57,032 bases of DNA from Pigmentiphaga sp. NML030171 (GTDB taxonomy: Bacteria > Pseudomonadota > Gammaproteobacteria > Burkholderiales > Burkholderiaceae_B): contig NZ_NINX01000010.1 in NCBI RefSeq assembly GCF_002188635.1, positions 1-57,032 of the forward strand, written 5' to 3'. This document shows positions 1 to 10,903 of this stretch, in pieces (the stretch's first letter is position 1; every line of letters starts with the position of its first letter). The position numbers and the translations under genes are program-made. The notes under the pieces are model-generated. The model saw nothing but the letters and a program-made list of their open reading frames with translations. It did no database searches and was not told the origin of the DNA.

Positions 1-127
1 CGACTACATCGAGCGGTTCTACAACACAAGGCGCCAGCACTCAACGCTGGGATACGTCAGCCCCATGCAGTTCGAGGCGGCGGTTTGTTAGGTTAAACAA
101 CCTGTCCGGAGAGGCGGGGCAAGCCCA
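1..127 (+). mobile_element. right end of an IS3-family insertion sequence (truncated by window edge)
   Basis: The first 91 bases encode the C-terminus of an IS3-type transposase. The non-coding tail then runs to about base 127. Read on the minus strand, the tail starts TGGGCTTGCCCC and continues to TCCGGACAGG, which resembles an IS3-family terminal repeat starting with TG. The reading frame of the flanking PAS gene on the minus strand is normal up to this point and meaningless beyond it, which supports the boundary. The other end lies outside the window, so the duplication cannot be checked. Confidence 0.7.
2..91 (+). CDS. IS3-family transposase OrfB, C-terminal 29 residues (partial)
   Basis: The frame opens before the window and ends at TAG 89-91. 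The residues DYIERFYNTRRQHSTLGYVS are the typical C-terminal end of the rve integrase core in IS3-family OrfB proteins, just after the catalytic Glu. Only the tail is visible, so group assignment within IS3 is not possible. The protein would carry out DNA cleavage and strand transfer for the element whose right end lies at about 127. Confidence 0.8.
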   Translation, partial: DYIERFYNTRRQHSTLGYVSPMQFEAAVC

Positions 128-275
128 GATACCCGGTTAACTCCTTGAACGCGTCGTTAACATATAGCACCCGGCGCAGGCTTCGTTCAGCCTCAAAAAT
201 AACGATACTTTCAAGCTGTTGATCCGCGTATTGACGAAATGCAAAGTGAACGTCAATCGGCTTGCGTTGTGCCAT
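128..275 (-). pseudogene. PAS-domain protein, N-terminal fragment cut by IS
   Basis: About 49 residues read MAQRKPIDVHFAFRQYADQQ and then SIVIFEA, VLYVNDAFKELTGY. The last stretch is the classic start of a PAS sensor domain (I/V-x-YVN-x-AF-x-x-LTGY). The frame then enters the IS end and stops after eleven unrelated residues. The rest of the gene, probably further PAS, GGDEF or EAL domains by family analogy, is missing. It is the last of four minus-strand genes that begin at 3266, so it may have been the distal gene of that unit. The fragment itself is unlikely to function. Confidence 0.7.
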
Positions 276-329
276 GTATCCAATCTCACTGGGCCAAGTA
301 GAACATCAGCCTATACTTCACATGGGTGG

Positions 330-1265
330 TTAATCGTGATTTATGGAAGCCAAGGCGCGCCGAGCACGCCGTTCCATGAACTGAGGCAGGGACATTCGTG
401 GGTAGATGTGTGTAAGCGTGTAAAGGTCGTTCATATCCTCGTTGGACAACTCATTGGCGCCCAAGCTGTCGAACGCGCGCACCCCCCAATTTAGCCAACG
501 GCGGGTCTCGGAAGAATTTTCAAAGTAGCAGCCGGCGAACATAAGAGCTTTGGCAACATCAGTCCGCCCCCCTCGCTGCCAGTGCGCCCTGCGGAACTGA
601 TGCAGATAGCGCACCTGCACTATCAAGCTCCGCAGAAGAAACTCGCCAGTCAGTCCTCCGTGACGAAGATCCCACTTGATCCAGTGAACGATCCGCGCAG
701 ACAGGCAAGACGGTGACCATGCCGGGCCACGCCCGGGCAGGTTTGCCATGGCCCAGCTCCTGACGATAGCTTGATGCCACGGCAAGCGTTCGTCCGCCCC
801 GGCCGCGGTGAGGTCCTCGAAGCGATGCAGCATGGTGAGCCATGCTTCCCCCCAAGGTATGTGGCGCCATCCTCTGCTATCTGGAAGCGTGTGCTCGACA
901 CCGTCGAACACGAATGTCCATGGACCTTTCATGGTGCTGGCCGAGGTACCTGCGGGCCAGCGACTTGCGGGCTGACGCAGCGGCAATGTAGCGCCATAAG
1001 CTGAATCAGCGAGGTAGCGCCTATAGCGATTCATGCCATAGACATGGCTCCAGCAGAACGTGCGGAGAGCGCTTTGCATCTCCGAAAAGACACTGCTGAT
1101 TCCGCTGGCCGGCATGTCAACCGGAAGCATAGGTTCGAACGTGTGGGTTTTCTCCCACTGGCCTCGGCGCTCGCGGGCGTCGAATGGAACCCGTCGCTCC
1201 CCTATCGCTTCAGGGTGATCGTGCAGGCTGGACACGATACTTCTTCTATCTTGAACAGCACTCAT
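330..1265 (-). CDS. heparinase II/III N-terminal-domain-like protein, truncated or degenerate
   Basis: This is a 311-residue protein. The middle resembles the alpha-helical N-terminal domain of heparinase II/III family proteins: GPWTFVFDG, IPWGEAWLTMLHRFEDL, ANLPGRGPAW, ARIVHWIKWDL and AKALMFAGCYFE. In family members the AKAL segment is preceded by a G-N-H-L-x-A-N motif; here that stretch reads RGGRTDV. The large C-terminal beta domain of full-length enzymes (usually 500-600 residues in all) is absent and the last 50 residues do not match the family. It has no visible signal peptide. It sits 21 bases after the receiver-like gene and could be co-transcribed with it. I infer a decayed polysaccharide-lyase-like gene; a retained non-catalytic role cannot be excluded. 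Confidence 0.5.
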   Translation of the reverse strand: MSAVQDRRSIVSSLHDHPEAIGERRVPFDARERRGQWEKTHTFEPMLPVDMPASGISSVFSEMQSALRTFCWSHVYGMNRYRRYLADSAYGATLPLRQPASRWPAGTSASTMKGPWTFVFDGVEHTLPDSRGWRHIPWGEAWLTMLHRFEDLTAAGADERLPWHQAIVRSWAMANLPGRGPAWSPSCLSARIVHWIKWDLRHGGLTGEFLLRSLIVQVRYLHQFRRAHWQRGGRTDVAKALMFAGCYFENSSETRRWLNWGVRAFDSLGANELSNEDMNDLYTLTHIYPRMSLPQFMERRARRALASINHD

Positions 1266-1286
1266 GTTCTGTACTCACTCGAAAAG

Positions 1287-1778
1287 CTATACGAAATAGC
1301 GCATTTCAGATATGGAGCTCGCCTTGGCCAATCTTGCAATACATGACGTCCTGCGAGGGATCGTCAACGGCTCTGGAAAACACGGCTCCACCAACAAAAC
1401 CATGCAGTAGTCGGCCGGCAGGCCCAGGTCGATTTCTGCGATTTCCAACAGGTCAAGATCGGGCAACGTACTGCTCAGAAACAAGGTGGATGGCTTCCAC
1501 GCGCCAAGTGCGTGCACAAGAGCGCGATGAGTGCCAACCGCTCGAACATGACAGCCGTGCTGGCTCAAGAAGCTGCATGCGTCCGCGCAGAAACGTTTGT
1601 CTGCGTCGGCAAGCAGCACACGCTGGCGGCACGACGGAGTTGCAAGTCGCGAGGCCTCCAATGCAGACCTCGGATGACGCATTTGCCTGTCTTCATCTTT
1701 CCGGCCCCCCTTCCTGACCGGCAAGTTCGGTCGATGGCGGCGAATAGCTGTGCTTTCGGAGAGGACTGCTGTATCCAT
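1287..1778 (-). CDS. response-regulator receiver-like protein without the phospho-acceptor Asp
   Basis: Up to 163 residues; an internal Met gives a start near 1682 (MRHPRSALEASR), which is more plausible because the preceding 32 residues look non-coding. From there RVLLADADKRFCADACSFLS resembles the beta1-alpha1 acidic region of CheY-like domains. The later STLFLSSTLPDLDLLEI matches the beta3 segment that normally reads L-D-x-x-LP-x-x-G, but Ser replaces the phosphorylatable Asp. There is no output domain. It lies between the degenerate GGDEF-EAL gene and the heparinase-like gene on the same strand. It may be a phosphorylation-independent interaction domain or simply decaying; the sequence does not decide. 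Confidence 0.45.
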   Translation of the reverse strand: MDTAVLSESTAIRRHRPNLPVRKGGRKDEDRQMRHPRSALEASRLATPSCRQRVLLADADKRFCADACSFLSQHGCHVRAVGTHRALVHALGAWKPSTLFLSSTLPDLDLLEIAEIDLGLPADYCMVLLVEPCFPEPLTIPRRTSCIARLAKASSISEMRYFV

Positions 1779-1916
1779 CAGTGCGTCTTCACCCTGTTAC
1801 CGAACAACATCATCTTGTTCCCAAGAAGTAAGCTTCGTTTGGTTGCCTCATGCCAGAATTGTTGATTGCAATTCATGCGAGACCTTGGTCGGCGTGGCTT
1901 GCTCAGAAGCAGTAGT
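1779..1916 (-). other. 138-bp spacer, no gene seen
   Basis: Between the EAL-type gene (stop at 1917) and the receiver-like gene. It is relatively AT-rich. I see no convincing hairpin terminator, promoter or small gene. Confidence 0.4.
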
Positions 1917-3266
1917 TCACGTTTGCTCGGAAGCCGTTGCGGTGCAGCCCATCAAGAGGTCAGGCGCCATCCCATGCTCGGAACGACGCACTTTGGCGCG
2001 TCCGATGAAATCCCCCTGCAGCCAGACGTCCATGCGACGCCGTACCGCGTCGATATCGGCTTCGCTTTCGATGCCTTCGATGACAATGTCGTCGGCAAGG
2101 CGGGAACACAGCTGGACGAGGTTGGTCAGGACGCTGCGCGCGGCGCCATCGCTGCGGCCGCGGCCCAGGTAGCCGTTGTCGATCTTGATGATGGCGGGCT
2201 TGGCTCGCACGCTGAAATCCAGCGTGTTGAATCTCGAGCCGAAATTGTCCAAGGCGATGCGGCAACCGAGTTGCTGCAACTTACTCACGAACTCCAGGGG
2301 TTCATCCGTCCCAGGAAATGACGCGTTCTCGGTCAATTCGATGACGAGCCGCGAGGCCACGAAAGGGTCGGCCTCCAAGTCCTCGAGCACCTGTCTCCAC
2401 CAGGAATCGACGACGACGCTTTGCGCCGAAATGTTGCAACCGAGGCAAAGAGCTGGTCGCAACCTGAGGAGGGCCAGCACCGCCTGCACCACGCATCGGT
2501 CGAACAGACGGATCAGGCCCACGCGCTCAAGTGACTTGAGCGCGGCCTCCAGGGACACCGGCTCGCCGTCTTCGTCAAGAGCGCGCACGAGCCCTTCCTG
2601 GTAGAGCTGCTGGCTGAAGTCGACCCGCGCAACAATGGGCTGAAAGGCTAACGTCAATCGTCCAGCATTCAAGAGCTGGAATACGCGCAAAGCCTCCGAC
2701 ATATCTTTCGCATACTCAAGCCGCCAAGCCTCGGTACATTGGTCCGGAGCGAATCCCGGCTGAGTGGCCGTGCCTGGGCCGATGCCGGAATCCGTCAGCT
2801 TCGTGTCCACCCCGTCGATCAAACGAGCCTCTACGAGCGCGAAAGCCGTTTGCCCCCCATGTTCGACGGGCGTGCTGCAAAGAGAGATCAGGACGTACTC
2901 GAGCAGGCGCTCTCTTGAAACGCTCTCGCTGGTCAGGATGGGATAGGGAGACAGTAGAAAGCGGTCATCCCCGAGTCGCAACGCCGCGTCGCTGGTGATG
3001 CCGGCTGCAAGCGCTCGCCCCTGCAGCTCCCGCTCGACGGCAGCGGCAAATGCGTTCCCATAGACTGCGGCGAGATGGGCATGATTTCTGAGCGTGACGA
3101 GAAGTTGCGGCGCCTGCCGCCGGGCCGCATGGCCGGGGCCGCCAATGTGCTCAATGACTGGCCGGCATTTCATGTGGGCCGCCCAGCGCTGCGACATGCT
3201 GGCATGGCCGAGCCGGAAGCCCGAATTACAGCCGGGAGGCTGCCGAAGAGCCTCCCGGCTGTCCAC
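1917..3266 (-). CDS. hybrid protein with degenerate GGDEF and EAL domains
   Basis: A 449-residue frame from a GTG at 3266; an ATG at 3197 is an alternative and neither has a strong ribosome site. Residues about 55-110 look like a shortened GGDEF domain ending in RLGDDRF (99-103 where RLGGDEF is expected), so cyclase activity is unlikely. Residues about 195-430 are an EAL domain: FQPIV 208-212, EGLVR with Glu224, CNIS, ELTE, IKID and IEGIE. The DDFGTG metal-binding motif reads DNFGSR (Asp340, Asn341), so phosphodiesterase activity is probably lost or weak. The likely role is a c-di-GMP receptor or a decayed enzyme. Its 5' end lies 6 bases from a palindrome paired with another next to a serine recombinase gene. 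Confidence 0.7.
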   Translation of the reverse strand: MDSREALRQPPGCNSGFRLGHASMSQRWAAHMKCRPVIEHIGGPGHAARRQAPQLLVTLRNHAHLAAVYGNAFAAAVERELQGRALAAGITSDAALRLGDDRFLLSPYPILTSESVSRERLLEYVLISLCSTPVEHGGQTAFALVEARLIDGVDTKLTDSGIGPGTATQPGFAPDQCTEAWRLEYAKDMSEALRVFQLLNAGRLTLAFQPIVARVDFSQQLYQEGLVRALDEDGEPVSLEAALKSLERVGLIRLFDRCVVQAVLALLRLRPALCLGCNISAQSVVVDSWWRQVLEDLEADPFVASRLVIELTENASFPGTDEPLEFVSKLQQLGCRIALDNFGSRFNTLDFSVRAKPAIIKIDNGYLGRGRSDGAARSVLTNLVQLCSRLADDIVIEGIESEADIDAVRRRMDVWLQGDFIGRAKVRRSEHGMAPDLLMGCTATASEQT

Positions 3267-3271
3267 CCCTC

Positions 3272-3293
3272 TGCAAAAGGGGTCCTTTTTGTC
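3272..3293. repeat. 22-bp palindromic site A (possible recombination site)
   Basis: Arms TGCAAAAGGG and CCTTTTTGTC around a 2-bp centre GT (3282-3283). Its reverse complement matches site B (3368-3389) at 19 of 22 positions. It sits directly upstream of the degenerate GGDEF-EAL gene. A short palindrome with a 2-bp centre next to a serine recombinase gene fits a crossover site. Confidence 0.55.
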
Positions 3294-3367
3294 ACTATCG
3301 CAAGCTAGCAGATATCGTGAAGCAGCTTTACCGTTTCAATGGGCTATTTTGTTACAAAACGCGCTCC

Positions 3368-3389
3368 GACAAAAGGGACCCCTTTTGTC
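3368..3389. repeat. 22-bp palindromic site B (possible recombination site)
   Basis: Perfect 10-bp arms GACAAAAGGG and CCCTTTTGTC around the 2-bp centre AC. The centre is inverted relative to site A (GT), so the two sites lie in opposite orientation with 96 bp between centres. It lies 67 bp before the serine recombinase start. Confidence 0.6.
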
Positions 3390-3455
3390 AATTTTCGTAA
3401 CATGCGCATCATCGGGCCGGGTCCTCCCACGTCTCTGCGCGTGCCGAGGTCAAGC

Positions 3456-4091
3456 ATGAAGATCGGATACGCCCGTGTATCGACCCAGGATCAAAACCTG
3501 GCTCTCCAATTAAGAGCTCTCGAAAGCACTGGTTGCGAACGAATCTATACAGATCAAGGCTATTCAGGTTCAACGACTGCCCGGCCGGGACTCAAGCAAG
3601 CGATGCAGGCCCTCCAATGCGGCGATACATTCGTGGTCTGGAGGCTGGATCGCCTAGGTCGGTCCCTGGTGAGCCTCGTTGATATGGTCAGCCGTCTTAA
3701 GGAAGGCGGCGTAGAGTTCGTTTCCCTCTCCGAACACATCGACACGGCCTCTTCCGCGGGGAGGCTCGTGTTTCACATGATGGCCGCCTTGGCAGAATTT
3801 GAGCGCTCGCTTATCAGTGAGCGGACGCGAGCCGGGATGGCCGCAGCCCGATACCAAGGCAGGCATATGGGCCGGCCCCTGGCGCTGACCGAAGAACAAC
3901 TGAAGGAAGCCCGAGTGGAACTGCAGCGAGAGCCTATCGCCGAGGTGGCTCAGCGGTACGGAATTCATCCGCGCACTCTGCAGCGTCTGGCAGCGCGAAC
4001 GGATGCGCTGCTTGCACAGAAAACCCACGTCGAATCTGTTGCAGATTCGATTCAAAAGGATACAATTGCAACAGAAAAACCCCCTTGTTAA
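3456..4091 (+). CDS. serine recombinase (resolvase/invertase family), intact
   Basis: A 211-residue protein starting at ATG 3456, MKIGYARVSTQDQ; upstream in-frame codons are not family-like. Catalytic Ser9 lies in YARVST. Arg63 and Arg66 are in VWRLDRLGRS, the family's active-site segment. LVFHMMAALAEFERSLISER (104-123) is the long dimerisation helix, and a Hin-like helix-turn-helix follows at about 160-185 (IAEVAQRYGIHPRTLQRL). It is slightly longer than the usual 180-200 because of a tail of about 25 residues. It should cut and rejoin DNA at a 2-bp core; two candidate sites lie just upstream. A second, disrupted paralogue starts 204 bp downstream. Whether it acts as invertase or resolvase cannot be decided from sequence. 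Confidence 0.92.
   Translation: MKIGYARVSTQDQNLALQLRALESTGCERIYTDQGYSGSTTARPGLKQAMQALQCGDTFVVWRLDRLGRSLVSLVDMVSRLKEGGVEFVSLSEHIDTASSAGRLVFHMMAALAEFERSLISERTRAGMAAARYQGRHMGRPLALTEEQLKEARVELQREPIAEVAQRYGIHPRTLQRLAARTDALLAQKTHVESVADSIQKDTIATEKPPC
4031..4049. repeat. 19-bp inverted repeat inside the recombinase 3' end
   Basis: Perfect 8-bp arms CGAATCTG and CAGATTCG around TTG, inside the non-conserved C-terminal tail of the first recombinase. It could be a protein-binding site that the coding region has grown across. Confidence 0.4.
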
Positions 4092-4103
4092 TGCAACAGA
4101 AAA
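4067..4103. repeat. direct repeat of TGCAACAGAAAA
   Basis: TGCAACAGAAAA occurs at 4067-4078 and again at 4092-4103, a 25-bp period across the stop codon of the recombinase. The intervening ACCCCCTTGTTA resembles one arm of site B. The 4092-4294 gap that follows has no other gene that I can see. Confidence 0.4.
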
Positions 4104-4580
4104 TTTCTTTTTTTGCTAAAGCGTTCTATTGAGACTTTTCGGAGTGACGTCCGTTCGCCTTCACAGCCGGATCAAGAGACCTTGTCCGGTAGGACTTCTG
4201 CGATGCGAGTCGCTGCTGTAGCTCTTTTCCGTGAAAGCTGGTAGAGCAGTGCTCGACCGGATTCATGTTTGAACGCGTGGCATGAAGACCAGCCATGAAA
4301 ATCGGTTATGCCAGAGTATCGACAGAGGACCAAAACCTTGCTTTACAAGTTGCTGCGCTTGAAAAAGCCTGCTGCGACGCCATCTATACAGATCGAACGT
4401 CTGGGGCTTATCTTCGGCGCCCCGGGTTGGACGCTGTGCTTAAGAAGCTGCACAGGGGGGCGACACTCGTAGTATGGCGTCTCGATCGGCTCGGGAGGTC
4501 GCTGCGCGCGCTGGTAGATTTGATCCATCAGCTTGGAAAGCGTGGAGTGAATCGCCCCGGGAATCGAGGAGGCTGTTTGG

Positions 4581-5432
4581 TTAAAGTACAGCGTTCATCG
4601 GCACAGCTTCAGAGTAGTTACGGTGATAGAGTTCTTCAGCCTGTGCAGGGGGAATATACCCGATGGACCCGAGCAGGCGCTGATGGTTATACCAAGCGAC
4701 CCATTCCAGTGTTGCCAACTCCACGGCGGCCCTGGTTTTCCAGGGAGCTCGGCGATGGATCAGTTCGGCCTTGTACAACCCGTTGATGGTCTCAGCCAGG
4801 GCGTTGTCGTAGCTATCGCCTCGGCTACCGACAGACGGCTCGATGGCTGCCTTGCCCAGGCGTTCGGTATAGCGGATGGACACGTATTGCGATCCTCGGT
4901 CAGAATGGTGGATCAGGGAGTCAGCGGGACGTCGGTCATACAGGGCCTGCTCCAGGGCATCCAACACGAAGTCTGTGCTCATGGTATTGCTCACGCGCCA
5001 ACCGACGATACGGCGGGCGAATACGTCAATGACGAAGGCCACGTACAACCAACCCTGCCAGGTCGACACGTAGGTGAAATCCGATACCCATAACTGATTG
5101 GGCCTGTCAGCATGGAAGTGACGATTGACCCTATCCAACGGGCACGCCTGCGAACTGTCAGCAATGGTGGTACGCACCCGCTTACCCCGGCGCACGCCCT
5201 GCAGACCCAGGCGACGCATCAGGCGTTCAACTGTGCAGCGGGCTGCGGCAATGCCTTCCCGTTGCAGTTGATGCCAGACTTTGCGTGCGCCGTAGACCTG
5301 CATATTGGCTTGCCAGACACGCCGAATCTCTGCCATCAAACCCTCGTCGCGTCGGCTGCGAGCACTGCGCAGTTCTGGACGCAGTTGACGGGCGGCATGA
5401 CGCCGATACGCCGATGGGGCAACCTGCAACAC
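4581..5432 (-). CDS. IS3-family transposase OrfB (DDE integrase core)
   Basis: 283 residues from an internal GTG. The same frame extends upstream (VEPICKVLQVAPSAYRRH), so the functional protein is most likely the OrfAB frameshift fusion. It has an HTH_21-like segment (VWQANMQVYGARKVWHQLQR) and then the rve core. The catalytic triad is visible as Asp in LWVSDFTYV, Asp in IHHSDRGSQY and Glu in NALAETINGLYKAE. The C-terminal YNHQRLLGSIGYIPP is typical. All core motifs are intact. It mobilises the surrounding element. Confidence 0.92.
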   Translation of the reverse strand: MLQVAPSAYRRHAARQLRPELRSARSRRDEGLMAEIRRVWQANMQVYGARKVWHQLQREGIAAARCTVERLMRRLGLQGVRRGKRVRTTIADSSQACPLDRVNRHFHADRPNQLWVSDFTYVSTWQGWLYVAFVIDVFARRIVGWRVSNTMSTDFVLDALEQALYDRRPADSLIHHSDRGSQYVSIRYTERLGKAAIEPSVGSRGDSYDNALAETINGLYKAELIHRRAPWKTRAAVELATLEWVAWYNHQRLLGSIGYIPPAQAEELYHRNYSEAVPMNAVL

Positions 5433-5485
5433 CTTGCAGATCGGCTCGACCCCGTAGACGTCTCGGTGCCGGTCGATATAGGCGC

Positions 5486-5809
5486 TTACTTCTTCAGTTC
5501 GCGGTCGAGCGCCGCCTGGGCGAAAAAAGCACTGGCCGACTTCAGAATCTCGTTGGCCCGGCGCAGTTCTTTGTTCTCTCGTTCCAGCGCCTTCATGCGT
5601 TCGCGTTCGCTGGTGGTCATGCCGTCACGCATGCCGCTGTCGATCTCGCTGCGCTTGACCCAGTCCAGCAGCGTAGCCGGCACGCAACCGATCTTCGGCG
5701 CAATGGACTCGACTGCTGCCCACAACGATGGATACTCGCCACGATGCTCCTGCACCAGGCGCACGGCGCGTTCACGGACTTCAGGGGAAAACTTGTTCTG
5801 CTTGCTCAT
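5486..5809 (-). CDS. IS3-family transposase OrfA (helix-turn-helix)
   Basis: 107 residues, [20 protein letters not shown]. The N-terminal half is a HTH_Tnp_1 DNA-binding domain that should bind the terminal repeats. A leucine-zipper-like coiled coil follows ([20 protein letters not shown]) for multimerisation. The start follows GGAGCC on the minus strand. The stop lies inside the upstream extension of the orfB frame. A run of six T (minus strand) and an AAGAAG sequence near the 3' end are candidate slippery sites for making OrfAB. Confidence 0.92.
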
Positions 5810-6185
5810 AGGGGCTCCATTTTCTCAAAGACTGGAGCCTCCGCAAAACCCGAGGCGATTCAGAGTGCATTTTGTCTCGCTTACCGAGAACATCTCCACG
5901 GAAACTTCGGGCGGCATGCTGCTTTTTCACATGATGGCCGCTCTGGCGGAGTTCGAGCGCTCATTGATCAGTGAGCGCACCAAGGCTGGCATGGCGGCTG
6001 CCCGTGCGCTTGGTCGTCCTTTAGGGCGATGCAGAGCGATGTCGCCCGAACAAAGAGTCGAAGCCCTGCGTGCACTGGCAGAAAATAGACCGCTCAAGGA
6101 AGTCGCGGCATATTATAAAGTGCACCCTAGGACGCTACGTCGTGTTGTGGCGCTGGAATCAGAAACTCTGTCCCTCGGCTTGTAG

Positions 6186-6349
6186 CACACTGTGCGGCCC
6201 GGCACCCCCGAACGAGCGGCACAGCTTGACGATCAAGGCCGTGTGATGCCGCCGGTCTCCAGGGGTGACAGGTCGTACTGGCGTTTGCTGCGGCGGCCAT
6301 CCGGTCCGCTGGCCGCCACCGGAACGGTCTGGCCGAGCTGCACGCCGGA
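6186..6349. other. 164-bp junction without recognised gene
   Basis: Lies between the disrupted recombinase and the BON-fusion gene. It is much more GC-rich than the recombinase zone, so the boundary between the mobile zone and host DNA is probably here. No inverted repeat or duplication marking an end was found. Confidence 0.4.
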
Positions 6350-6931
6350 TCAGTTCACGACCAGCCGGTCGTCGACCTGAGCAATGCCGGGTGCCGACCA
6401 TGCCGCGTTTTCGACAGCGCTTCGTTCAAGCCAGCTGCGCACTTTACCCTCCAGCGTGACCTTGTTGTCGTTGACTTTTACCGTAATGCCATTCGCTTCG
6501 ATCTGTGCGTTGCGCTTGAGAGCATCCTCGATGCGACGCCGCACAACCAGTGGAGCGGTGACCAGCGTGTTGGCCGCGCCGTTGCCAGCCATGTAGCTGG
6601 CCGCTCCTTGCACCAGGACCATGGCGGCAGCGACGTATTCCAGCCGTTCCCCGAACCAGCCGCGGATGAGGTCCATGACGGCTTTGGTGCAGCCGCAGCG
6701 GGCCAGGACCATGGCGGTTGCCGCGAACAGCATGACCGAGTAGATGGTCATGATCTGGCCCATGCCATCCAGGAAAAGTTTGCTGATGGCGGCCGCGGGA
6801 AGCTTGCCGATCAGCACTGCCGCGATACCCCCGATCAGGCCGGCCAGCAGGAAGTGGAAACGAAAGGGCGGAAGGAGCAGGACCAGGATCAGGACCAGCG
6901 GAAGAATGGCAAGTAACTGGGGCATTGTCAT
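6350..6931 (-). CDS. chimera: N-terminal half of a permease fused to a C-terminal BON domain
   Basis: The start is ATG 6931 (MTMPQLLAILP) with AGGGAGA upstream. Residues 1 to about 128 form hydrophobic segments of a transporter (ILPLVLILVLLLPP, FLLAGLIGGIAAVLIG, IYSVMLFAATAMVLA, GAASYMAGNGAANTLVTAPL) resembling ion or carboxylate permeases cut before mid-length. From about residue 130 the sequence changes abruptly to RRIEDALKRNAQIEANGITV, KVTLEGKVRSWLE and AAWSAPGIAQVDDRLVV, a C-terminal BON domain normally found in periplasmic or cytosolic proteins. The junction is at about 6540-6545. Both parts are in frame but the combination is not one I know. I infer a deletion or recombination product; permease function is unlikely. 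Confidence 0.7.
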   Translation of the reverse strand: MTMPQLLAILPLVLILVLLLPPFRFHFLLAGLIGGIAAVLIGKLPAAAISKLFLDGMGQIMTIYSVMLFAATAMVLARCGCTKAVMDLIRGWFGERLEYVAAAMVLVQGAASYMAGNGAANTLVTAPLVVRRRIEDALKRNAQIEANGITVKVNDNKVTLEGKVRSWLERSAVENAAWSAPGIAQVDDRLVVN

Positions 6932-7124
6932 GCTGAGTCTCCCTTGGTGGCTGATATGGATTGCAGGTCGACACTCGGCGTCGACCATGCAGCCCAATTA
7001 TGGGAATCCCCACAGAGATTTTCTTGACATAGATTAAGAATCGTCGCGTCGTTCACTTCTTAAATAGAGCCATCTCGTTTCGAGTGGAGGCTTCCTGTGT
7101 CGGATCTGGTCTATCGCCGCGACG

Positions 7125-8390
7125 ATGCGCCGAGGTCGGCGCGGGGACTGGCTCGTCTACGGTTCCCAATGGCTGGTGACAATGTTCTATGCCGTGGTGT
7201 GGGGCTATGTGATCGTGGGAGCCGGCCTGGGACTGCGCGGCGTCGCTTTGACGCAGTACCTGTCGGCGATCGTGTTCACCATAGGGCTTGCCACATTGCT
7301 GCAGAGCTGGCTGGGGCACCGGTTTGCGATGGTCTCCGGCCCCAACGTGATTCCTTCGTTGGCCATCGTGGCGGCGTATGGGGCAGGCGGGGCGGACTAT
7401 GCGCTGCACGCCTTCACGGCTCAGGCGATGGCCGGACTAGCCATCGCCGTACTGGTGCTTTGCGGCGTCGTGCGGTATGTCCAGCGCTTGTGGAGCCCGC
7501 TGGTTCTCGGATCGATGATCATGATGGTGGGCATTTCTGTGGCAGGTCTGGGCATTGCTTCCATGGCGCGCGGTGGCATCGGCGTGGATTTCATGGTGGC
7601 AATGGTGCTGGCCCTCGGTGGAAGCGTACTGGCGATACATGGCCGGGGTGTGCTGGCGACCTTGCCGCCGTTGCTGATCATCGGGCTGGGCTACCTGGCC
7701 TTCCTCGCCATGGGGCGGTTCGATGTGGCCTTGGTCGCTCAAGCGCCGTGGCTGACCACTCCGCGAGTACTACCCTATGGCTTGTCGATGCCGCCATGGG
7801 ATCTCGTGTTGCTGATGCTTGTCGTCAACCTGATGGCGGCGCTCAATTTCTATGGCAACTTGCATGGCTATGCAGATGTGGTCGGCGAGACTGTATCGCC
7901 GGTTGTCGAACGGCGATCCTTCTTGATTTTCGCGTTGGCGGAGACCGTATTGCCGGGCTTGCTTGGCGCGCCGGCGACGGTGTCCTATGGCGAGAACCTC
8001 GGCATCGTTCAACTGACCAGGGTGGCAGCTCGTGCTTTCATCATCGCAGCCGCCGCTGTATTCGTCGGGCTGGCCTTCATCGGTCCGTTCGGCGCCCTGA
8101 TGGCAGCCATGCCGGATGAAATCGCGGGCGCCGTGCTGCTGGGTATCGCTTCCACGGTCCTGGGAATCGGTGCGCACACGCTCGGTGCAGCTCCGGTCTT
8201 TGAGCGGCGCGAACAGACCCTCGTGGGTTTTTCGATGTTTCTGAGCCTGGGGCTGTACCTGTTGCCGGCGCAGGCCTGGGCGAACATGCCGGTCCTGGTC
8301 AAGGCGATCTTCGGCAACCCCGTCATTTCCGTTATCTTGTTTGTCATGTTGTTCGAGCACGTTATCTTTCGTGCCCGGCCGACGTCCTAG
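7125..8390 (+). CDS. NCS2-family nucleobase/purine permease, apparent frameshift near the start
   Basis: 421 residues with 12 or more hydrophobic segments over the full length of the NCS2 (xanthine/uracil permease) family: GSQWLVTMFYAVV, TLLQSWLGHRFAMVSGPN, and LGAPATVSYGENLGIVQLT, the conserved late-helix motif. It should import a purine, pyrimidine or related ring compound by ion symport. The ATG at 7125 lacks a ribosome site. A GTG at 7097 with GGAGG six bases upstream starts MSDLVYRRDDAPR, the usual NCS2 N-terminus, in another frame. Dropping one G of the run 7143-7146 joins the two frames. The hydrolase start lies 10 bp after the stop, so substrate import and hydrolysis are probably coupled. 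Confidence 0.85.
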   Translation: MRRGRRGDWLVYGSQWLVTMFYAVVWGYVIVGAGLGLRGVALTQYLSAIVFTIGLATLLQSWLGHRFAMVSGPNVIPSLAIVAAYGAGGADYALHAFTAQAMAGLAIAVLVLCGVVRYVQRLWSPLVLGSMIMMVGISVAGLGIASMARGGIGVDFMVAMVLALGGSVLAIHGRGVLATLPPLLIIGLGYLAFLAMGRFDVALVAQAPWLTTPRVLPYGLSMPPWDLVLLMLVVNLMAALNFYGNLHGYADVVGETVSPVVERRSFLIFALAETVLPGLLGAPATVSYGENLGIVQLTRVAARAFIIAAAAVFVGLAFIGPFGALMAAMPDEIAGAVLLGIASTVLGIGAHTLGAAPVFERREQTLVGFSMFLSLGLYLLPAQAWANMPVLVKAIFGNPVISVILFVMLFEHVIFRARPTS

Positions 8391-8400
8391 GAGAGCTGCA

Positions 8401-9303
8401 ATGGAAGACGATGTGATTCACAAGGGTACGCCGTCGCAGGCCGGCGTGCATCGTACCTACGAGGAGTCGCTGCTACGCCGACGGGGGGAGATACTTGAAC
8501 GAGTCCGCCAAGGCTATGAGCATTGGAAACAGACGGGTTTCTATGGCGTTCCACAATGGCTCTATGGTCCACCCAAAGGAAAGCTTTTCCAGGTCGCTTG
8601 CGAAGATGTCCCTGGCTTCGGCGATACGTCCTACCTTGAGTTCGACGCGGGTCGCACGGCGCTCGTGTCGATCGACTGGCAAGTCGACTTCTGCGGAGAG
8701 CATGGATATGTCGACGTGATGGGGTACTCCCTGGACAACACCGCGAACCCGTTGAAATACGCGGCGCGCGCGTTGCGGGACGCACGGCTGGCCGGTTTGC
8801 TGGTGCTGCATTGCCGGGAAGGCCATGTGCCGGATCTGAGCGACTGTCCGTACAACAAGATCCTGCGGAGCAAGATCATCGGCAAGAACGCGGTTGGGAT
8901 AGGCGAGACTCCGGCCGGAGGGCTAGGGCCGCTACTGGTCCGAGGGTCCTTGAGCTGGGGCATCGTGAAGGAAGTCGAGCCGGTGTCGGGCGAATTGATC
9001 GTGGACAAGGCTGGCAAAGGCGCGGCACTGGTAAGTGATTTTTTCCTGACCCTGCAGAATGCGGGCATTACGCATCTCATCCTGTGTGGTATCACGACCG
9101 ACGTATGCGTCCATACCATCATGCGCCAGGCCAATGACCTCGGCTATTGGTGCATGTTGTTGAAGGACGCCACAGGGGCGACCGACATGGGTAACCACGA
9201 GGCCGCGATCAAAATGGTAAAAATGCAGGGTGGGGTGTTCGGCTGGGTGTCTGATAGCGTCCGGCTCCATGCGGGCTTGTCGGCAGCAGGTCTGATCGAG
9301 TAG
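8401..9303 (+). CDS. isochorismatase-like cysteine hydrolase (amidase)
   Basis: 300 residues; ATG 8401 follows AGGAGAG, which overlaps the permease stop. The isochorismatase fold occupies about residues 85-295 with the triad Asp92 (ALVSIDWQVDF), Lys203 (IVDKAGKGA) and Cys236 (ITTDVCVHTIMR). The segment GHVPDLSDCP and the late NHEAAIKM-x-x-MQGGVFG resemble the biuret/ureidoacrylate amidohydrolase branch, which cleaves C-N bonds of ureido or amide compounds. An N-terminal extension of about 80 residues (RTYEESLLRRRGEILERV, FYGVPQWLYGPPKGK) is longer than usual. Placement behind an NCS2 permease suggests a role in nucleobase-derived or heterocyclic nitrogen use. The exact substrate is not known. 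Confidence 0.85.
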   Translation: MEDDVIHKGTPSQAGVHRTYEESLLRRRGEILERVRQGYEHWKQTGFYGVPQWLYGPPKGKLFQVACEDVPGFGDTSYLEFDAGRTALVSIDWQVDFCGEHGYVDVMGYSLDNTANPLKYAARALRDARLAGLLVLHCREGHVPDLSDCPYNKILRSKIIGKNAVGIGETPAGGLGPLLVRGSLSWGIVKEVEPVSGELIVDKAGKGAALVSDFFLTLQNAGITHLILCGITTDVCVHTIMRQANDLGYWCMLLKDATGATDMGNHEAAIKMVKMQGGVFGWVSDSVRLHAGLSAAGLIE

Positions 9304-9352
9304 CCTGCGGTGCGTGTCGCCGGACTGCTGTCGCCATTGCCCGGTATTGGAA

Positions 9353-10903
9353 TCAACCAAACCGATAGCGCCCCTGATCATCACGCACAATCGCGCGCCG
9401 GGAGGTAATATCTTCCAGCCCCCGGACAAGCTCGCGCCCATCCCGAGTCCCAACCGCCGTCATAAGCTCCGCGAAAAACTTGGGCCCGCTCTCCAGCGCA
9501 GCCTCCAGGGAAGCATGGCTCGAAGCCCCGAACCTTGGGGGATGCGGAACCTCATGCTCGATAGGGCGCCTGGCCCCAGGCGCCAGCCATGGCAGCGTCA
9601 TGTCGAATCCGGTCTTGTCGGTCGTTCGCGAGCCCTCCAGCGAAGGATCCAATGGAACGGTCCTCAAGCCGCTTTGGACGACCAGGTCCCTGCTTGCCTG
9701 AAAACGCGTCGCCAGCGCCCACTCCATCTGGGCGTCGGAATAGATGTCGATGTCCGGGTCGACGACGAACACATTCTTGACGTTGCCCAGGCAGCCGAAT
9801 GCGGCGGCGATGGCATTGCGGGCTTCGCCCGGGACGCGTTGCTGCAACGCGATGCGGACGTTGAACGATCCTCCCGCGGCGGGGGGCGCGTAGACCGCCC
9901 GCACTTCGCGCACGGCGGACTCGAGCGCTTTCCAGACGAGGACCTCTGTTCGCAGGGAGCAAAGCTGCGCCGTATCCGTGCAGTGCATGCTCGGTCCGCC
10001 GATGGAGGAGGTTTGAAAGATGGCGTCCCGGCGATGGGTGATCGCGGTCAAGTGGAAGAGCGGATTGCGTTTTACCGCTCCGTAGTAGCCGAGAAATTCG
10101 CCGAAAGGACCTTCGGGTTCCACATGGCCGCGCTCGTCGAAATAGCCTTCGAGGATGAACTGGGCATCGGCGGGCACCATCAGATCGTTGGTCACGCACT
10201 TGACGACGCCCAAAGGCTGGGCGCGCAAGGCCGCGATAAGCGCCAGTTCGTCGCCGGGAAAGCGAAGCGTGGCGGCGAGTTGATCGATGGGGTGGCTGCC
10301 GATGGCGAACGCCACCGGCGTGCGCTCGCCGCGTTCCGCGCGCGCCATGTAGATGGCGCGCAAATCGGAAGGCGCGACCAGATCCACGCCCGCCGACCGG
10401 CGGCCGCGCAGCATGAGGCGGCGCATGCCCACGTTCGTATGCCCGGCGAAGGGATCGTGGACGAAGTCGACCGACGCCGATATGTAGGGCGCGCCGTCGA
10501 ATTCGTGCTGCAGGTGCACCGGCAGGGCGGTCAAGTCGCATTCGTCGCCGGTCAGCACGACCTCCTGGACCGGCGCATGCGCGCGCGGCACTTCCACCAG
10601 TTCGCCCGGCTTGCGCAGCCGCGCGAGCACCTCGGACAGCACCTTGTCCGCCGTGGTCCCGAAGGCGGCGGCCAGGCGGGCCCGGCTGCCCGCGACGTTG
10701 CCGCACAAGGCGAAGCGGCTCCCTTCGATGTTTTCGAACCATGCCGCGCGCGGATTGCTCTCCAGGCGGGCGGCGATATCGGCAAGCGCGACGGGCGCGG
10801 CATGTCGTTCCAGGTCGTCGGCGGGCAGGGACGCAAGAAAGGTACGCAGGCCGAATCGTTGTAGATCGGGACGGCTTTCTGATCGGGGAAGGGGCGCGTT
10901 CAT
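9353..10903 (-). CDS. UbiD-family (prFMN-dependent) decarboxylase
   Basis: 516 residues from ATG 10903, preceded by AGGAGGAG. It spans the UbiD fold: LARLRKPGELVEV, DECDLTALPVHLQHE, DPFAGHTNVGMRR, then EGPFGEFLGYYG, the segment carrying active-site acidic residues that work with prenylated FMN, and VDPDIDIYSDAQMEWALATR with GFDMTLPW near the C-terminus. The family reversibly decarboxylates aromatic or alpha,beta-unsaturated acids. No ubiX-type prenyltransferase is nearby, so cofactor must come from elsewhere. It is transcribed divergently from a Bug receptor, and convergently with the cysteine hydrolase (49-bp gap). An aromatic or unsaturated carboxylate taken up by that receptor is a reasonable substrate guess. 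Confidence 0.88.
   Translation of the reverse strand: MNAPLPRSESRPDLQRFGLRTFLASLPADDLERHAAPVALADIAARLESNPRAAWFENIEGSRFALCGNVAGSRARLAAAFGTTADKVLSEVLARLRKPGELVEVPRAHAPVQEVVLTGDECDLTALPVHLQHEFDGAPYISASVDFVHDPFAGHTNVGMRRLMLRGRRSAGVDLVAPSDLRAIYMARAERGERTPVAFAIGSHPIDQLAATLRFPGDELALIAALRAQPLGVVKCVTNDLMVPADAQFILEGYFDERGHVEPEGPFGEFLGYYGAVKRNPLFHLTAITHRRDAIFQTSSIGGPSMHCTDTAQLCSLRTEVLVWKALESAVREVRAVYAPPAAGGSFNVRIALQQRVPGEARNAIAAAFGCLGNVKNVFVVDPDIDIYSDAQMEWALATRFQASRDLVVQSGLRTVPLDPSLEGSRTTDKTGFDMTLPWLAPGARRPIEHEVPHPPRFGASSHASLEAALESGPKFFAELMTAVGTRDGRELVRGLEDITSRRAIVRDDQGRYRFG

Follow-up and report, generated by a model that had tools for sequence, protein, structure and literature searches.

Gin of phage Mu and Hin of Salmonella are homologous serine recombinases that invert DNA between near-palindromic sites with a 2-bp core (gix and hix), which lie in inverted orientation. 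Their invertible segments are about 1–3 kb long, and their half-sites are of the AAACC/AAAACC form. In Bacteroides, the serine invertase Mpi flips promoter-sized segments and acts on at least 13 regions scattered over the genome (PMC5903667). Invertible elements have also been described before c-di-GMP phosphodiesterase genes of Clostridioides difficile (pdcB/pdcC, Cdi3), and the available portions of these reports describe no adjacent serine invertase (PMC11868660, PMC5903667). Inversion in C. difficile depends at least partly on the tyrosine recombinase RecV (PMC5903667). In uropathogenic Escherichia coli, the ipuS-ipuR-upaE locus combines recombinases, an invertible element, a regulator and an autotransporter; the recombinases are tyrosine recombinases, the element is 260 bp long with 7-bp repeats, and the regulator is of the LuxR type (PMC6083910).

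The locus analyzed here, from Pigmentiphaga sp. NML030171, is predicted to work like the Hin and Gin invertases and like invertible-promoter phase variation. It shares with Gin and Hin a homologous serine recombinase and inverted near-palindromic sites with a 2-bp core. It differs from them in the size of the segment, about 96 bp, in that the segment holds neither the recombinase gene nor the target gene, and in the half-site AAAAGG; among the related loci, one gix-like site was seen, at L120. The segment is promoter-sized as with Mpi, but the recombinase adjoins the sole site pair found in the genome, whereas the Mpi regions are scattered (PMC5903667). Functionally, the closest published systems are the C. 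difficile phosphodiesterase switches, which unlike this locus have no adjacent serine invertase in the parts of the reports available, and E. coli ipuS-upaE, which has a comparable gene set but no EAL regulator; both involve tyrosine recombinases (PMC11868660, PMC5903667, PMC6083910). The listings of a literature search that covered mainly openly available papers held no description of this minimal serine-invertase switch.

The window, meaning the whole stretch of 57,032 nucleotides that was analyzed, contains two sites between a serine recombinase gene (3456–4091, plus strand) and a divergent gene (1917–3266, minus strand), both named by the Pfam search. The first-pass annotation had placed there two 22-bp inverted near-palindromes with GT and AC centers, 96 bp apart and matching at 19 of 22 positions; the coordinates, centers, distance and match were all recovered when recounted in the sequence. 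Site 1, the distal site (3272–3293), reads TGCAAAAGGG-GT-CCTTTTTGTC with its core at 3282–3283, and site 2, the proximal site (3368–3389), reads GACAAAAGGG-AC-CCCTTTTGTC with its core at 3378–3379. The core of site 1 is the reverse complement of that of site 2. Site 2 is a perfect 10+2+10 palindrome, and 7 of the 10 arm positions pair in site 1. With up to three mismatches, GACAAAAGGGNNCCCTTTTGTC matches in the window at these two sites only and nowhere in 100 shuffles, and with up to two mismatches AAAAGGGNNCCCTTTT is found at no other place in the whole 5.86-Mb genome. The predicted invertible segment (3283–3378) measures 96 bp from core to core, with a 74-bp spacer at 3294–3367. The recombinase, the two sites and this segment very probably form an inversion switch, one member of a natural family of miniature switches for c-di-GMP and adhesin genes.

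The switch DNA has no match in the ten genus mates searched, and relatives of the recombinase occur in 2 of the 10 only, with 34–49% identity. The first 10 kb of the window have a G+C content of 57–62%, and most of the rest, from 14 kb on, 65–71%. The low G+C content of positions 1–10000 and the switch DNA without a genus-mate match suggest a putative acquired island. A reading frame at 6350–6997, in which a partial transporter (Na_H_antiporter/DctM-like, weak) runs into a BON domain (Pfam), looks like a chimera at an island edge.

The recombinase is full length (211 aa) and closest to Gin-type DNA invertases by Pfam, structure match, phage match and tree. It carries a Pfam Resolvase domain (E 2.8e-46), and the match of its C-terminal helix-turn-helix to HTH_23 remains below the cut-off (20.7 vs 24.6 bits). 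The best solved-structure match is the DNA invertase 4m6f (E 3.9e-49, residues 1–177), with 3uj3 also among the best; we take both structures to be Gin. The gene beside the sites is thus a serine recombinase, as the first-pass annotation had claimed, and its nearest solved structures are DNA invertases. Mu-type invertases are the best among the phage matches listed, with about 50% identity, and the NCBIfam Mpi model gives 47 bits vs a cut-off of 272. In a recombinase tree of 148 rows, one 93-row clade (support 100/98) takes in 52 of the 53 rows labeled as having a nearby site pair, a label that used a laxer score threshold of 29 and that looks false positive by sequence for L053 and L042. Rows without a pair are interspersed in this clade (41/93), and the Mu-like row L120 falls outside it. 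L053, from a genome of the same family, has a clade recombinase with a lone perfect palindrome, TTCAAAAGGGTTCCCTTTTGAA, upstream (1145–1166) and no clear partner site.

Related loci were drawn from genomes, viral contigs and plasmids, many of them from plasmid records. Upstream stretches of 700 bases at 232 recombinase genes, which include overlapping loci, some counted more than once, were rated with a half-site score. The score leaves out the two central bases, and the top pair of each gene was picked blind to the core. At a score of at least 31, 85 genes have a pair, a number to be read with the fact that the half-site consensus was itself derived from upstream stretches of this kind, which ties the score to them except at the excluded central bases. 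The cores are reverse-complementary in 81 of the 85 pairs and direct-only in none, and the same upstream sequences reversed as a control gave no pair at this score. After similar spacers were collapsed, 33 non-redundant pairs remained, and 32 of them have cores that match in the inverted sense, where chance would give 1 in 16. The one pair that does not match is that of L156, from the same locus as L034, where a site has decayed. Eight ordered core combinations occur among the 32: GT/AC (12), TT/AA (7), AA/TT (4), AT/AT (4), TC/GA (2), and one each of CT/AG, GA/TC and AC/GT. Such covariation of core dinucleotides is expected of crossover sites and is not required of an operator or of an accessory site. 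Pairs below a score of 31 (L021, L032/L047, L038, L052, L107, L115, L119, L023/L030), which are weaker or have a site one base longer, were dropped before the non-redundant count. A scan of viral contigs with one fixed pattern found nothing, and carries little weight because the pattern, which had an odd-length form, was overly strict. The first-pass annotation had proposed looking in other genomes for this recombinase with a flanking pair, and relatives indeed have this inverted pair in the corresponding position. The Burkholderia loci L050, L112, L113, L114 and L117 share GTC-N-AG/CTA-C/G-AAT directly outside the proximal site, possibly a -10 element for the recombinase.

The distance between the two sites is also constrained. 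Center-to-center distances of the 32 pairs fall at 85–86 (3), 94–97 (14), 104–108 (9), 117–119 (5) and 140 bp (1), with a Rayleigh R of 0.83 at a period of 10.7–11.1 bp; related loci do not give wholly independent spacings, and no p value is leaned on. Since the spacing steps by about one helical turn across families, these distances point to a looped synapsis in which the two sites would lie on the same face of the DNA. L107, L108 and L119 have spacings of 138–140 bp, two steps past 117–119, and none was seen near 128.

Segments in both orientations were found among Paraburkholderia loci. L118 and L181 lie on the same 1,440,798-base contig, plasmid PPGU19_p2 of Paraburkholderia sp. PGU19. The 300-bp flanks of L181 and of L182, which comes from a relative of PGU19, are collinear and in the same orientation (left 296/300, right 287/302 identical), and the spacer is identical at 82/83 positions when inverted vs 45/99 when compared forward. 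The inner half-sites CCCTTTTGTC and CCCTTGTGTC swap places along with the spacer, and the outer half-sites TACAAAAGGG and CCTTTGTGTC are unmoved. Diagnostic positions confine the crossover to a 9-bp interval containing the 2-bp core. A Megablast search of L182 against plasmids recovered PGU19 at 97.2%, in two pieces. In two other locus families, the spacer matches in inverted form at 58/74 (L183 vs L184) and 64/85 positions (L185 vs L186), and both sites are present in all three of these families. L034 and L039 match at 54/82 positions inverted, with a decayed distal site. The inverted score exceeds the best of 2000 shuffles in each of these four comparisons. Seven near pairs have the same orientation (L028/L114, L051/L111, H41/H42, L016/L017, L032/L047, L023/L030 and L182/L187). 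A search for both orientations in other genomes, likewise proposed from the window, has thus turned up segments inverted between related loci in three Paraburkholderia locus families. Paired and conserved sites, cores that match in the inverted sense, helical spacing and the occurrence of both orientations together establish, at the level of sequence comparison, inversion for the family. The window's own copy would presumably still flip.

The predicted target of the switch is the divergent gene, given here as the longest ORF, with a true start probably further in. It had been described as a degenerate GGDEF/EAL-like gene. The EAL part of this description holds (E 1.4e-39), but no GGDEF model matches at E 0.001. 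The label degenerate applies to a single position, the second D of DDFG, which reads DNFG in the window and is kept in 14 of 16 aligned EAL proteins; the other conserved motif positions compared are retained. In this alignment of 16 proteins, the catalytic motif residues are mostly kept. The gene downstream of the EAL gene (1287–1778, 163 aa) appears receiver-like by eye and has no Pfam or NCBIfam match. Across the 32 families, the nearest recognizable gene on the other side of the switch encodes an EAL protein in 19 and a type V (YadA/ESPR) adhesin without a detected EAL domain in 7, so 26/32 have one or the other. The remaining families have a sugar transferase (1), a transcription regulator at some distance (2) or no clear assignment (3). 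Target genes of L116, L112 and L117 were assigned by record annotation. The target gene is not always adjacent, as match-less ORFs intervene in some loci and the L112 adhesin starts about 2 kb off. An autotransporter gene, of the trimeric or the classical type, comes after the EAL gene and runs in the same direction in L016, L193, L195 and L196. Outside the 32-family set, L052 has an EAL gene near a BapA-prefix protein, and L119 has one beside an autotransporter.

The segment itself carries a conserved element at one end of the spacer. In the window it is GATAGT, read leftward from 3299 to 3294 on the minus strand and facing the EAL gene, a candidate outward-facing promoter or initiation element. 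Counted from the inner half-site of site 1, it has A at -5 and T at -1. This A/T pair is found at the distal end, facing the divergent gene, in 21 of the 32 families and at the proximal end in 2, compared with a background of 6% (p 1.7e-18 for the distal end). These counts establish a directional element at the spacer end across families. Judged by this motif, the window segment is in the commoner orientation. Read as a -10-like hexamer, the motif has its A/T pair at positions 2 and 6, the most conserved ones in a -10 hexamer. G or C usually stands at position 1. Scored with a sigma-70 matrix of the E. coli type, the 32 segments showed no enrichment (mean z -0.09 leftward, -0.24 rightward). 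Within the window segment, the promoter consensus is matched best by TTGTCA-18-TATCGT (3289–3318), which runs rightward at the recombinase. For these three reasons we do no more than infer a promoter inside the segment, and hence ON/OFF control. The minus-strand TTGAAA-17-GATATC quoted in the first-pass annotation is present but weak, and is not listed by a promoter scan of 3150–3480, which gave two plus-strand candidates vs 0.2 expected. The window orientation would be EAL ON and the inverted one EAL OFF, an assignment that we put at about even and against which the rightward match speaks. It is possible, though not the reading we favor, that the flipped element is another directional element, such as an activator site, a terminator, a leader or a start region. 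The lack of enriched sigma-70 hexamers would fit this, and the end motif, which abuts the half-site, may be an initiation or binding element. However, the motif keeps the two most conserved -10 positions and faces the EAL or adhesin gene far more often than it occurs at the other end. A hairpin with a perfect 14-bp stem and a 7-nt loop (3228–3262) lies between site 1 and the likely EAL start. It would fall in the leader of any transcript begun inside the segment, has no T run after it, and could attenuate a leader transcript. It is not a general feature, with a left-flank z of -2 or below in 3/32 families only (the window, L117 and L131).

A second, related recombinase gene lies beyond the first on the plus strand and is split. 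Its 5' part (4295–4549) shares 61% identity over query positions 1–86 and its 3' part (5862–6185) 59% over 85–184. Between them, an insertion sequence with an rve transposase (4548–5862, minus strand) has 27-nt terminal inverted repeats at 4548–4574 and 5836–5862. Another recombinase, in tandem or convergent, is present in the fetched stretch of at least 17 of the 32 families, a lower bound as the stretches are unequal in length and short flanks may miss some. Several of these partner recombinases group in pair-poor clades of the tree, one of 8 rows with no pair and one of 14 rows with 2. Should flipping require both enzymes, the window switch may be locked, its second recombinase being broken. 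It is thus conceivable, but unlikely, that the sites recombine in the family while the window copy has a fixed orientation. The related locus L034 of P. xenovorans LB400, with its decayed distal site, would be in line with such a loss, as would the split gene and the frequency of second recombinases. However, the adjacent recombinase is full length, both window sites are well preserved, and no second recombinase was found in the fetched stretch of 15/32 families, with the same reservation about short flanks.

That the sites are operators, or serve to repress the recombinase and divergent genes through a looped complex, with recombination incidental, is very improbable. They do lie between divergent genes, their spacing is helically phased as looping repressors need, and sigma-70 signals are not enriched inside the segments. 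But operators need no matching core, yet 32/33 match in the inverted sense in eight ordered combinations, and segments that are inverted and have exchanged half-sites occur in relatives. A res-type site that would resolve cointegrates or dimers, with site 2 as the crossover and site 1 as an accessory site, is extremely unlikely: although the Pfam family includes resolvases and many relatives are on plasmid records, the two sites have a common motif and cores that match, as an accessory site need not, none of the 85 pairs has direct-only cores, the outcome seen in relatives is spacer inversion, and the closest structure is a DNA invertase, not gamma-delta resolvase. The readings as plain operators, as a resolution site with direct repeats and as the outer ends of a transposon were set aside because none of them predicts complementary cores together with spacers in inverted form.

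The inversion switch first proposed from the window is supported by the inverted pair in relatives, the covarying cores, the Paraburkholderia segments in both orientations and the EAL or adhesin genes in 26/32 families. In the mechanism that we propose, the Gin-type serine invertase (3456–4091) would bind sites 1 and 2, which would be brought together by looping the ~75 bp between them. The invertase would then cut both sites at the 2-bp core and rotate, inverting the 96-bp segment. The outward-facing promoter or initiation element at one segment end is predicted to point leftward at the EAL gene in the window orientation (ON); inversion would turn it towards the recombinase (EAL OFF). Through the EAL protein, whose gene precedes a type V adhesin gene in some relatives, c-di-GMP signaling and surface attachment would be phase-varied.

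We lean towards a wider view in which such minimal switches are widespread in Proteobacteria, a Gin-related invertase, often with a partner recombinase, flipping a spacer of ~60–120 bp by phased looping and phase-varying EAL regulators and type V adhesins. Looped DNA of this length is shorter than the persistence length of DNA. The locus would offer a compact system for studying how a serine invertase joins sites separated by only about nine turns of the helix, and natural variants in spacing are already available. For the bacteria that carry it, the predicted outcome is that c-di-GMP-type EAL genes and adhesin genes are switched on and off reversibly and heritably, in many Proteobacteria and partly from plasmids.
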